22,204 bases of DNA from a virus, in the IMG/VR virus record IMGVR_UViG_3300030099_001550, positions 1 through 22,204 of that record; one strand, written 5' to 3'. Shown here piece after piece: positions 4,729 to 7,901 of the stretch. How positions within the stretch are numbered: position 1 is the first letter of the stretch; each line of letters opens with the position of its first letter. Below the pieces are notes generated by a model. The model was not told the DNA's origin and did not search any database. It saw only the letters and a program-made list of their open reading frames with translations. The position numbers and the translations under genes are program-made.

Positions 4729-4836
4729 ATGGAATACAATCAATTCAACTCTTTATTATTAGATATCAAAGTAAATTATGAATTTGTAGAATCCTCCGAG
4801 AAAGATGGCAGAGAAACAATTGACAAGCGAAAGTAA
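4729..4836 (+). CDS. possible 35-aa leader ORF overlapping next gene
   Basis: A 35-codon frame opens four bases after a promoter-like TATCTTTG and ends with TAA 32 bases inside the following gene, in another frame. The peptide begins MEYNQFNSLLLDIKVNYEF and ends in a charged DKRK. It has no recognisable family and could be spurious. Because a transcript from the promoter would begin at about this ATG, ribosomes would probably meet it first. It could therefore act as a leader that feeds or tunes translation of the next gene at 4805. Support is positional only. Confidence 0.35.
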   Translation: MEYNQFNSLLLDIKVNYEFVESSEKDGRETIDKRK

Positions 4837-5116
4837 ATTTAGCCTTAGTATAAAAGAATTAATTGCAGCAGCTATAGGCTTCAGCTCATTAATAGGAATG
4901 TATTTTACATTGCAAGCTGACATAGCACGAGCAATGGAACTGCCAACTCCTGAAATACAAAAAGTTGAGTTCGAGTATAAAGATAAATTAATTAGGTCGA
5001 CCATTGAGAAAATAGAAGCTGATGTTGTAACGGTCAAAGATGATGTAAGTGAAATTAAAAGCTCACTTGAAAAAATGGATGAGCGATTATATGAAATCAG
5101 CAAACAAAGAAGATGA
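4805..5116 (+). CDS. membrane-anchored coiled-coil protein, 103 aa
   Basis: Residues 1-17 are polar. Residues 18-37 form one transmembrane segment (ELIAAAIGFSSLIGMYFTLQ), and residues 57-100 form a charged heptad-like coiled coil (for example IRSTIEKIEADVVTVKDDV). An N-terminal anchor plus a long coil would place an oligomer at the inner membrane with the coil in the periplasm, or the reverse. Similar proteins are recalled from marine phages without assigned function. Position ahead of an amidase and a holin suggests a lysis role such as holin regulator or inner-membrane spanin-like part, but no lipobox or spanin partner is seen. It overlaps the next gene by ATGA. Confidence 0.62.
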   Translation: MAEKQLTSESKFSLSIKELIAAAIGFSSLIGMYFTLQADIARAMELPTPEIQKVEFEYKDKLIRSTIEKIEADVVTVKDDVSEIKSSLEKMDERLYEISKQRR

Positions 5117-5448
5117 GATGGTTAATAATAATATTATTATATTCTCAAGCTTTTTTCTCTCAAGATTTTAAAGACGGCATATCCTTAGTACAGTTCAACG
5201 CTTCATTCCTAGAAGAAAACTCAATATCATTAGACCCTATTACAGATGCCGATACTCATTCACTTATGATGGGTAAACACCCTGATGTATTTGAACGAGA
5301 AAAAATAATATATCTACCTACTCTAGTTCTTTATCACAATGGCAAAGAAATTGTAAGAGTAGAGAGCGATATATCTTTGAAGCTTCCTGAAGATGCTTTG
5401 AGTATTATTCAAGAAGAGATTGATTTAATTATTGAAAGTAAATTTTAA
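5113..5448 (+). CDS. secreted thioredoxin-fold protein lacking CXXC, 111 aa
   Basis: Residues 1-17 are a clear signal peptide (MRWLIIILLYSQAFFSQ). The rest resembles a thioredoxin fold. A strand S-L-V-Q-F-N-A-S-F lies where thioredoxins have their F-W-A-x-W-C-x-x-C strand and loop. Then H-P-D-V-F-E-R-E-K-I-I-Y-L-P-T-L-V-L-Y-H-N-G-K-E-I follows, like thioredoxin's Y-x-I-x-x-x-P-T-L-x-x-F-x-N-G. Pro69 would be the cis-proline. The protein has no Cys at all, so it cannot carry out disulfide exchange. It probably works as a binding or structural domain in the periplasm or outside. Start overlaps the preceding stop by ATGA. I recall related Cys-less proteins in other Bacteroidetes phages. Role unknown. 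Confidence 0.65.
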   Translation: MRWLIIILLYSQAFFSQDFKDGISLVQFNASFLEENSISLDPITDADTHSLMMGKHPDVFEREKIIYLPTLVLYHNGKEIVRVESDISLKLPEDALSIIQEEIDLIIESKF

Positions 5449-5449
5449 C

Positions 5450-6682
5450 ATGAACAGAAAACAAAAAACAGAAGAGTATGCAATCAATGGTGTTATATGT
5501 CTGCTAATAGTAGTAGCATTCTTATTAGTATCTAGTGTTGCTCTCGGACAAGAAAATAAAAAAGACAACATCTTTGATAAAGTATATGACGAGTTGTTCA
5601 AGTATGGAACCGTGTATGTTGCAGGAGATGCGAGGAACTCATTTGAAACTCAAAGTCCAAGCTACTTTGTAAGAACAAATCCAAACAATCTTTATGATGT
5701 TCCACAAGTTATAGACAATACAGTATATCATCCTTTTGATTATCGAGTAGGCGTTGGTTTTCGTAAGCTAGCTAGATTTGACTATGAGATAAAAGCAAAA
5801 AATTATTATGATGGAAAAGAAAACAACATCGCTCTATCTTCTCCGACATCAGCAGTAAAAGGATTGGAGTATTTATTGCATTATGAAAAAGAAAGAGAAA
5901 GAGGAGTAGAGTTTAATAATTCACGATACTTCGTTAGACATACAGGAGATTATCATATAATTAAGTTTGAACAAAGAGAACAAGGAAACGTAGGATTTAA
6001 ATATATGTCAGGAGAAGTTAGAGCTAGACTTCCTATTGGCAAAAAGCTTAGTATATCAGCAGGCGCAATCTATCGTACTCATCAACGTCCTTACGGATAT
6101 AACCCGATTGAAATATGGCTAAACGAGATAGATGAATTTGGATTCCCGGTGAATCCATGGTACAGTCTAGGTTACCAATATGGGTTTCAAGATATAGGAT
6201 ATACTCAAACAGATGATTACGGAAATGAAATATACGATTGGTATTGGGTAAACTCTCAGGGAGTAATAGTTGCTCATACTGACGTACAGTTCCGGGACTT
6301 AGTGTTTGGTAAATTAATGAACAGGTTCAATCAAGAAAAATGGGCAGAGCTAGATGTCTTTGGTGAAGTCGCACCTGTAGTTGGCTTTGACTTTTATGAC
6401 TATAAGAAAAACTTTTGGATTCATGTGTATGGCAATTGGATATTACCTTATCACAAATACATTCAAGGTAACGAAGATTTCTCATATCTGAACAGAAGCA
6501 ATTGGGGTCTAGGTGGGTTGAGACAAGACGCAGAGCCGGAACAGTGGGATGACTATCAGGCAGGCTTAATATTTGGATGGAAAATTTCTAGGACCCTTGG
6601 CTTTTTTGTAGAAGCTGAGTACACAGAGTTTTGGGATTCTAAAATATATAATAGCTCAGTAGGAATTAATTTTAGATTATAA
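5450..6682 (+). CDS. candidate outer-membrane beta-barrel protein, 410 aa
   Basis: The frame is open from 5432, but that ATG lies inside the previous gene. The ATG at 5450, right after the preceding stop, gives a normal export signal: a charged N-terminus, a hydrophobic run at about residues 15-31 (ICLLIVVAFLLVSSVALG) and a likely cut near residues 33-34. The mature part is rich in Tyr, Trp, Phe and alternating polar/hydrophobic stretches, for example R-A-R-L-P-I-G-K-K-L-S-I-S-A-G-A, and ends S-S-V-G-I-N-F-R-L. That end resembles the last strand of Bacteroidetes outer-membrane barrels, although Leu rather than Phe is last. It sits between a secreted protein and the amidase. Roles to consider are blocking superinfection, helping lysis, or a virion part. 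Confidence 0.62.
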   Translation: MNRKQKTEEYAINGVICLLIVVAFLLVSSVALGQENKKDNIFDKVYDELFKYGTVYVAGDARNSFETQSPSYFVRTNPNNLYDVPQVIDNTVYHPFDYRVGVGFRKLARFDYEIKAKNYYDGKENNIALSSPTSAVKGLEYLLHYEKERERGVEFNNSRYFVRHTGDYHIIKFEQREQGNVGFKYMSGEVRARLPIGKKLSISAGAIYRTHQRPYGYNPIEIWLNEIDEFGFPVNPWYSLGYQYGFQDIGYTQTDDYGNEIYDWYWVNSQGVIVAHTDVQFRDLVFGKLMNRFNQEKWAELDVFGEVAPVVGFDFYDYKKNFWIHVYGNWILPYHKYIQGNEDFSYLNRSNWGLGGLRQDAEPEQWDDYQAGLIFGWKISRTLGFFVEAEYTEFWDSKIYNSSVGINFRL

Positions 6683-6804
6683 TGGCAAGAAGAGCAAACG
6701 TAGTTCAGTTTAGAAAAAGAAAAAGAAAGTCACATCCTCATAGCAAAAATGCAAGTAAAGGACAGACAGGTTATGTTAAAAAATATATAGGACAAGGGAG
6801 ATGA
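6682..6804 (+). CDS. 40-aa Arg/Lys-rich protein
   Basis: This tiny frame starts on the last base of the preceding TAA (TAATG) and ends in ATGA shared with the amidase start, so both junctions are coupled. The peptide begins MARRANVVQFRKRKRKSHPH and ends Y-V-K-K-Y-I-G-Q-G-R, with about 15 basic residues in 40. I recall small proteins with an R-K-R-K-R-x-x-x-H-x-K-S-K pattern and a Y-K-G-Q-G-R ending in other Bacteroidetes phages. Such charge suits nucleic-acid binding, cell-wall or membrane interaction, but nothing in the sequence decides between them. Its exact fit between two genes supports it strongly as a real gene. Confidence 0.68.
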   Translation: MARRANVVQFRKRKRKSHPHSKNASKGQTGYVKKYIGQGR

Positions 6805-7220
6805 AAACACAAGATGTAGAAAAAATAATAGTACATTGTTCAGCAACAAGAGAAGGTGATGATTCCGTTAACGTAGAAGTTATAGACAAGTGGCACAAAG
6901 CTAGAGGATGGCGTGGGTGTGGATATCATTTTGTAGTTTTAATAGACGGCAAGATAGAAGTAGGTAGAAAGATAGATGAGTGTGGTGCACACACCAAAGG
7001 AATTAATTGTAAGTCTTGGGGTGTATGCTACATCGGTGGCGTAGAAAAAGATGGCAAAACTCCTAAAGATACTAGAACAAAAAAACAAAAAGAATCTCTA
7101 GAGTATTTATTATACTTCTTAAAATTATTACAACCTAACGCAAAGATACATGGACACAGAGACTTTGCTCCTAAAGCTTGTCCTAGTTTCGATGCAACTA
7201 CAGAATACGAAAACTTATGA
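6801..7220 (+). CDS. phage endolysin, zinc N-acetylmuramoyl-L-alanine amidase, 139 aa
   Basis: A 139-residue, single-domain enzyme of the Amidase_2 (T7 lysozyme-like) family, which cuts the bond between N-acetylmuramic acid and L-alanine of peptidoglycan. Near the start is I-I-V-H-C-S-A-T with His12 as zinc ligand. G-Y-H-F at 41-44 provides the conserved Tyr42. I-H-G-H-R-D at 116-121 gives His119, and K-A-C-P-S-F-D at 125-131 gives Cys127 as the third ligand and Lys125 near the catalytic site. Length is that of T7 lysozyme (about 150). There is no signal peptide, so it needs the holin encoded next door. It overlaps the upstream and downstream genes by ATGA. Confidence 0.95.
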   Translation: MKTQDVEKIIVHCSATREGDDSVNVEVIDKWHKARGWRGCGYHFVVLIDGKIEVGRKIDECGAHTKGINCKSWGVCYIGGVEKDGKTPKDTRTKKQKESLEYLLYFLKLLQPNAKIHGHRDFAPKACPSFDATTEYENL

Positions 7221-7618
7221 AAGATTTATTAGGAAAAATATTTGGCGCAGCCGGAGGTGGAGTAGCTGAAAAACTATCTAACATAGTAGATAAATTTGTA
7301 AAGACACCTGAAGAAAAAGATGCTTTTGAAAAAGAAATGACCGAGCTGTTTATGAAACATGAAGCAGATATAGAAAAAAATATTACAGATAGATGGCTAT
7401 CAGACAATGCAGCCTCTTGGTTAACTAAGAATGTCAGACCAATAATACTAATGTTCTTAGTGGTATCTACAGTTATTATGATATTTATTGACGCAGGTAT
7501 GATAACATTTGAGGTAGAAGATAAATGGACAGACCTATTGCAGCTTACTTTGATTACTGTTATTTCAGCTTATTTCGGTGGGCGTAGTTTTGAAAAGATA
7601 AATAAAAATAAAAAATAG
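7217..7618 (+). CDS. holin, 3TM/GTA-type, 133 aa
   Basis: A 133-residue membrane protein. Residues 1-20 form a Gly/Ala-rich amphipathic start (KIFGAAGGG), followed by a charged helical section to about 60. W-L-T-K-N-V-R-P at 68-75 precedes a transmembrane segment at about 75-92, and a second lies at about 107-122, ending Y-F-G-G-R-S-x-E-K with a basic tail. The W-x-x-(K/R)-N-x-R-P motif and layout match the holin family known from gene-transfer agents and many phages (Phage_holin_3-like). Position after the amidase and ATGA coupling fit a lysis pair: the holin opens the inner membrane for the amidase. It ends on TAG, and a promoter-like site follows immediately. Confidence 0.82.
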   Translation: MKDLLGKIFGAAGGGVAEKLSNIVDKFVKTPEEKDAFEKEMTELFMKHEADIEKNITDRWLSDNAASWLTKNVRPIILMFLVVSTVIMIFIDAGMITFEVEDKWTDLLQLTLITVISAYFGGRSFEKINKNKK

Positions 7619-7646: not shown

Positions 7647-7901
7647 ATGGAAGTAAAATTAAACTCAGAGAGTAAAGAAATTAAGTTAGAAGAAAAAGAA
7701 TTGGCAGAGCTAAAAGAAGCCAAGCTAATGTTAGATAGACACAAGTTAGCTATTGGTGATTTAGAGCTGCAAAAGAAAAGTTTGTTTGAAGCAGTAACAG
7801 TATTACAAGCTGACTTTAGAAAGCTAGAAGACAAGCTAATAAGTAAATATGGAAAAGACTCCGTAATCAACATGGAGAGTGGAGTTGTAAAACAAAAATA
7901 A
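7647..7901 (+). CDS. small coiled-coil protein, 84 aa
   Basis: An 84-residue, almost wholly helical and charged protein. Heptad-like hydrophobic spacing runs from about residue 8 to 70 (EEKELAELKEAKLMLDRHKL and a second helix around LQKKSLFEAV), with a slightly helix-breaking G-D-L-E in the middle, so a helical hairpin is likely. The end has K-Y-G-K-D-S-V-I-N-M-E-S-G. I recall this size and the K-Y-G-x-x-x-x-N-x-x-x-G ending from many phage genomes, placed between lysis or fibre genes and packaging genes and described only as unknown or prefoldin-like. It may be a small assembly helper; this is inference. First gene after a promoter-like site; the next start follows by one base. Confidence 0.68.
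   Translation: MEVKLNSESKEIKLEEKELAELKEAKLMLDRHKLAIGDLELQKKSLFEAVTVLQADFRKLEDKLISKYGKDSVINMESGVVKQK

Follow-up and report, generated by a model that had tools for sequence, protein, structure and literature searches.

In two-component spanins of the lambda Rz/Rz1 type, a type II inner-membrane protein with a coiled coil is paired with a small outer-membrane lipoprotein, and the two genes are adjacent and overlapping and often adjoin the gene for the endolysin. Unimolecular spanins, such as T1 gp11, form a trans-periplasmic link between the membranes with a single protein that has a lipobox and a C-terminal transmembrane (TM) helix. We know of no spanin with a third, thioredoxin-fold partner. 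In a survey of spanins, approximately 13% of phages, among them some with Bacteroidota hosts, had no recognisable spanin (PMC6139136), and Kongari et al. raised, as an untested possibility, an outer-membrane protein in the role of the o-spanin (PMC6139136).

The locus of concern here lies in a window (the whole stretch of DNA analysed) of 22.2 kb, out of a 30.2 kb IMG/VR record from a tailed phage. Three genes on the plus strand, A (4805..5116), B (5113..5448), and C (5450-6682), form a cassette that is proposed, with not quite even confidence, to be a three-part spanin equivalent in which a barrel, not a lipoprotein, is the outer-membrane anchor. The integrity and mobility of this module, its signals and fold classes, and its linkage to lysis genes were computed in this study. 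As in the Rz/Rz1 type, the cassette has a type II inner-membrane coiled-coil protein (A) and an outer-membrane partner (C), encoded by adjacent and overlapping genes that often adjoin an endolysin; however, the outer partner is a predicted beta-barrel of approximately 400 amino acids, a periplasmic thioredoxin-fold protein is always present as the third member, and no sequence relation to these spanins was found. The putative link across the periplasm is shared with the T1 gp11 type, but would be formed by three proteins instead of one, with neither a lipobox nor a C-terminal TM helix. The open-access literature on lysis systems and phage-borne barrels, in the portions available, holds no account of an A-B-C module or of a barrel as a spanin, which is weak evidence.

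Source of the sequence and likely host

The terminase, portal, and capsid genes of the window match PHROGs head-and-packaging families. The terminase has 74% identity to that of a metagenome podovirus (60.9 kb) and approximately 44% to those of the Flavobacterium elemo phages, and on this similarity the host of the window phage is likely to belong to the Bacteroidota. The other carriers of the cassette are likewise uncultured phages, probably infecting Bacteroidota.

Gene C and its relatives

Gene C encodes 410 amino acids from its ATG, and a TTG at 5432 is also a possible start. An earlier note, made from the letters of the DNA, had described a 410-residue exported protein, and this description stands: all aligned full-length relatives have a signal-peptide-like N-terminus without conserved letters, typically ending in ...NAQ or ...GQE. 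The reading frame is conserved with 57-97% identity across hundreds of viral contigs and is therefore no chance ORF; C is confirmed as a genuine gene. Profile scans of IMG/VR, the contigs of which are fragments, recovered first 442 loci and then, in a single scan, 536, on contigs of up to 213 kb, so C is an exception to the remark of the earlier note that phage barrels are uncommon. The scans were seeded with conserved C peptides and degraded copies are thus under-sampled.

No match to C was found in Pfam, NCBIfam, or the PDB sequences, and PHROGs gave very weak matches only. Approximately 50,700 annotated phage records gave no match to C, and one chance-level match to a consensus query. TIMP-2, matched in a PDB profile search at E 0.09, dropped out with a deeper alignment, and C as a lipid-modifying barrel enzyme was rejected as no enzyme family matched. 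Profiles of A, B, and C found nothing in the cultured relatives MW202828, elemo, phi19:3, phi38:1, and Gundel_1, some of these records being covered in part. Across 84,980 species genomes of bacteria and archaea, C is present on two MAG contigs only, and at least one of these (L090) shares its gene order with the viral contig L046; C as a host-derived moron was rejected on these grounds. Such near-absence is as expected for a lytic function.

Predicted fold of C

Structure prediction, which the earlier note had suggested for counting strands, gives 14 long strands in both of two AlphaFold2 models built from different alignments (mean pLDDT 77.3 and 79.9; pTM 0.64 and 0.69, a moderate confidence). 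In both models the loops contain short strands and a helix spans approximately residues 278-300, and residues ~110-134 are poorly modelled. The 50 PDB matches listed by Foldseek for each model are all bacterial outer-membrane or organellar beta-barrel entries, with query TM-scores that are low, mostly 0.2-0.3. The nearest protein by fold is A0A516LKJ4 (E 9.1e-27, 25% identity).

In the strands of C, the lipid-facing positions are hydrophobic and variable while the lumen-facing positions are polar and conserved. Entropy is 1.20 outward and 0.54 inward, a contrast of 0.66 that compares with 0.07 +/- 0.13 after shuffling (largest shuffle 0.45), and a larger alignment (A5) has the same pattern (1.18 outward, 0.62 inward). 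The C-terminal strand is of the outer-membrane type, VGINFRL in the window and VGLNFTFR or similar in relatives. The barrel-like strands first noticed in the letters are borne out by the models, the Foldseek matches, and the entropy contrast, and C combines a signal peptide with alternating amphipathic strands and this C-terminal strand, as outer-membrane beta-barrels do. The barrel fold class is well supported, and C is an exported protein and very probably an outer-membrane beta-barrel, putatively closed and inserted in the membrane. In signal peptide, amphipathic strands, and general fold class, C resembles the phage-encoded porin-like proteins of uncultured Caudovirales and the outer-membrane protein of phiAS5; unlike these, it has no detectable sequence family, is strictly partnered with A and B, and has conserved long loops. 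The loops are probably surface-exposed and are approximately as conserved as the strands.

The predicted lumen is lined by sixteen almost invariant charged residues. This lumen, and the ribonucleotide reductase genes that adjoin the cassette in phages of approximately 100 kb, would be consistent with C supplying the infected cell as a specific channel energised or gated via A and B. Such an uptake role is nevertheless unlikely: host genomes have no homologue save the two MAG contigs, no porin family of Pfam or NCBIfam matches C, and the recurrent association with endolysins would be left unexplained.

Genes A and B

A (103 amino acids) has one predicted N-terminal TM helix followed by a periplasmic coiled coil, a layout similar to that of i-spanins. 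Members of the family have approximately 100 amino acids, the TM helix starts at a median of residue 17, and the C-terminal part is coiled-coil-like. The charge bias over 132 sequences (N-flank +0.5, C-flank -1.9) is consistent with an N-in/C-out orientation, and judged by sequence only, A has the N-terminal TM helix and periplasmic coiled-coil domain of a type II inner-membrane protein. The known spanin families of PHROGs are unmatched by A, with phrog_739 at a non-significant E of 0.37.

B (111 amino acids) overlaps A by an ATGA and has a signal peptide and a predicted thioredoxin fold without CxxC. The family has approximately 110-140 amino acids and is predicted to be secreted. Three homologues exceed the cut-off of the thioredoxin profile PF00085 (26.6-32.2 bits, cut-off 23.5), while the window's own B is below it at 12.7 bits. 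B differs from thioredoxin in being secreted and in having no CxxC active site in any of 128 sequences, and so it is not a redox thioredoxin.

A paralogue of A, here called A', has a TM helix and a coil and is found at 2422-2733 of L048, where it has the motif EFRIKWPRGEMGALPDDAKQDLRI. An A' homologue in the Pelagibacter phage HTVC027P, gp15 (MN698241, 9830-10252), is two genes ahead of an M15 endolysin, and no recognised B or C is near it.

Integrity and mobility of the module

There are 123 distinct C loci, 87 of which have at least 2.5 kb of flank on each side, and both A and B are present in all 87; C without A and B was never found where these flanks allow. Only loci from the first scans went into the A and B profiles; those added by the later scan give the same result. 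Conversely, all B loci of the ABC type that have 1.8 kb of flank on each side also have C (64/64). This strict co-occurrence supports the suggestion of the earlier note that the barrel could form an undescribed envelope system together with a "membrane coil" (A) and a "Cys-less thioredoxin" (B).

A and B are found without C on two contigs, so the pair can stand alone: in L105 it adjoins an amidase, and in L339 (1473-2107, a 14-kb contig) it is among siphophage tail genes. The latter setting would fit a virion or entry component, which the earlier note had considered for C. Such a role is very improbable, because C and B both bear Sec-type signal peptides and the cassette is common to phages without any detected shared structural proteins.

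The junction of A and B is an ATGA overlap in 56 of 126 cases and is within 30 bases in 124 of them, and the B-C and C-A junctions are also mostly within 30 bases. Gene order is ABC in 45 loci, CAB in 61, and ABCAB in nine; the C tree requires at least six changes of order, and the trio is never separated. The ABCAB arrangement, with its second A-B pair, is found in L055, L065, L073, L076, L199, L205, L222, L224, and L228. The second B is clearly divergent in L055, L065, and L073 (LLHINAKWN... type), and a similar B accompanies A in L105, without C.

The detectable proteins common to a 60-kb and a 114-kb carrier are limited to three: C (58%), A (43%), and a holin-like protein (39%). The 60-kb carrier likewise has three in common with a carrier of 164 kb, namely C (59%), A (43%), and a 68-aa two-TM protein. 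These phages are otherwise nearly unrelated, and A-B-C has therefore passed between phages as a unit. A-B-C is thus a strict three-gene module. Pairwise distances correlate at 0.63 for A-B, 0.57 for B-C, 0.43 for A-C, and 0.27 for C and the endolysin, values confounded by shared descent; the pattern would suit B in the central position, though common descent alone could yield it.

Lysis neighbourhood

Downstream of the cassette in the window, on the plus strand, are genes for a basic peptide, an Amidase_2 endolysin (6801..7220; phrog_822), and a holin-like protein (7217..7618; phrog_3427, E 2.3e-22, with a likeness to GTA_holin_3TM below the cut-off). The barrel gene is therefore in a lysis block, as the earlier note had it, but not directly before the amidase, since the 40-codon basic ORF (6682-6804) is between them. 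An M15 or amidase endolysin is within 2.5 kb in 78 of 109 assessable cassette loci. All ABC and ABCAB cassettes (50/50) are followed by the endolysin, compared with 28/59 for CAB; in the other 31, neither an M15 nor a small-amidase endolysin is within 2.5 kb. Along the C tree there are five switches of endolysin type, and in the 164-kb phage the cassette adjoins a third type (PG_binding_1+Amidase_2) and a Phage_holin_4_1 holin.

The CAB cassettes with no such neighbour weigh against a lysis role, as do carriers of approximately 95-114 kb, in which the cassette is beside the ribonucleotide reductase genes nrdA and nrdB; in one of these (G009, 114 kb) the endolysin is approximately 39 kb away. 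Spanin genes can be unlinked from those of the holin and endolysin. A cassette by nrdA/nrdB-like genes, often with a lipoprotein gene and with no adjoining endolysin, is found in L008, L010, L179, L182, L185, L188, L190, L192, L212, L218, L232, and L239.

The endolysin neighbourhood could mirror a general late-gene block. The position of the cassette in the large phages, away from the endolysin, would favour superinfection exclusion, in which A-B-C would seal or alter the envelope during infection and stop the DNA entry of further phages. A set of proteins spanning inner membrane, periplasm, and outer membrane could block entry, and the module shifts between unrelated phages as accessory gene sets do. 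Exclusion is nonetheless improbable: the long loops of C are conserved approximately like its strands, which is not the pattern of a receptor decoy or of a blocker aimed at particular rivals; the 84,980 species genomes contain no copy on a prophage; and every ABC or ABCAB cassette is within the late lysis block. Between lysis and exclusion, the genomic evidence for C leans to lysis.

A census with a simple pattern found no credible lipobox ORF in the window and the rest of its record, nor in three carrier contigs of 60-65 kb, which are possibly incomplete. These three contigs have almost no other envelope proteins and no unimolecular spanin with lipobox and C-terminal TM helix in one protein, and with no credible lipoprotein in them, no classical o- or u-spanin is visible. 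For this reason a role in lysis timing or regulation is quite unlikely, as the phages would then have no visible outer-membrane disruption factor. In that role A would be a partner of the holin, and B and C would delay lysis by sensing or stabilising the envelope and would not rupture the outer membrane; the position of A beside endolysin and holin genes, the A-like genes ahead of endolysins without B or C, and the A-B pair without C beside the amidase of L105 are consistent with it.

Proposed function as a spanin equivalent

As a spanin equivalent, A would be held in the inner membrane with its coiled coil reaching into the periplasm, C would be inserted as an outer-membrane barrel that substitutes for the o-spanin lipoprotein as the outer anchor, and B, as a redox-dead thioredoxin-fold periplasmic protein, would bridge the two. 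With the peptidoglycan gone through the action of holin and endolysin, the joined A-B-C complex would draw both membranes together and disrupt the outer one. A two-membrane bridge acting after peptidoglycan removal agrees with the strict linkage, with the lysis neighbourhood, and with the predicted locations in inner membrane, periplasm, and outer membrane; the localisation of the three proteins, their physical contact, and their membrane-disrupting action are inferred. Counting against a spanin role are the lack of a significant match of A to spanin families, the third, thioredoxin-fold partner, and the two contigs with A-B but no C.

From sequence and model evidence, the trio looks like a new means of bridging and breaking the host outer membrane at lysis. 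Somewhat more tentatively, a mobile three-component spanin with a barrel anchor and a redox-dead thioredoxin bridge may constitute a third architectural class of outer-membrane disruption, and it is suggested with the same reserve that this class is widespread in uncultured phages, the hosts of which are probably Bacteroidota. Found via co-occurrence, A-B-C offers a concrete candidate, in three expressible genes, for phages without a recognisable spanin (PMC6139136), and C represents a family of outer-membrane barrels almost confined to phages that travels as part of a unit between otherwise unrelated ones.

Neighbouring genes and relatives without the cassette

The Arg/Lys-rich peptide (6682..6804, plus strand, 40 amino acids), which the earlier note had suggested as a possible part of the system, is a neighbour outside the module: it is present in 27/86 loci, at varying places, and also in relatives without the cassette. 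As a disruptin-like member it was rejected on the same grounds. It ends in ...SKNASKGQTGYVKKYIGQGR (commonly RPGVHAKTKSS.LKSSK.Y.K.YRGQGR), and instances with and without the cassette, at shifting positions, are found in the window and in L168, L170, L171, L115, and L117.

Among cultured or complete relatives without the cassette, a protein of approximately 180-215 amino acids combines an N-terminal TM helix with a C-terminal end rich in strands, and in several of them its gene is near the endolysin (L092, 13470-14093; L093, 12180-12725; L095, 20185-20784; L096, 28442-29089). It is only a suggestion that this is a single-protein counterpart, possibly a spanin reaching from inner to outer membrane in one protein. 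In terminase relatives without the cassette, a two-TM holin-like protein of approximately 52 amino acids is ahead of the endolysin (L100, 4900-5061; L110, 6672-6833; L170, 5867-6025). In the window, the holin-like gene is followed at 7647-7901 by a gene for a coil-rich protein of 84 amino acids without a TM helix, which recurs in relatives.
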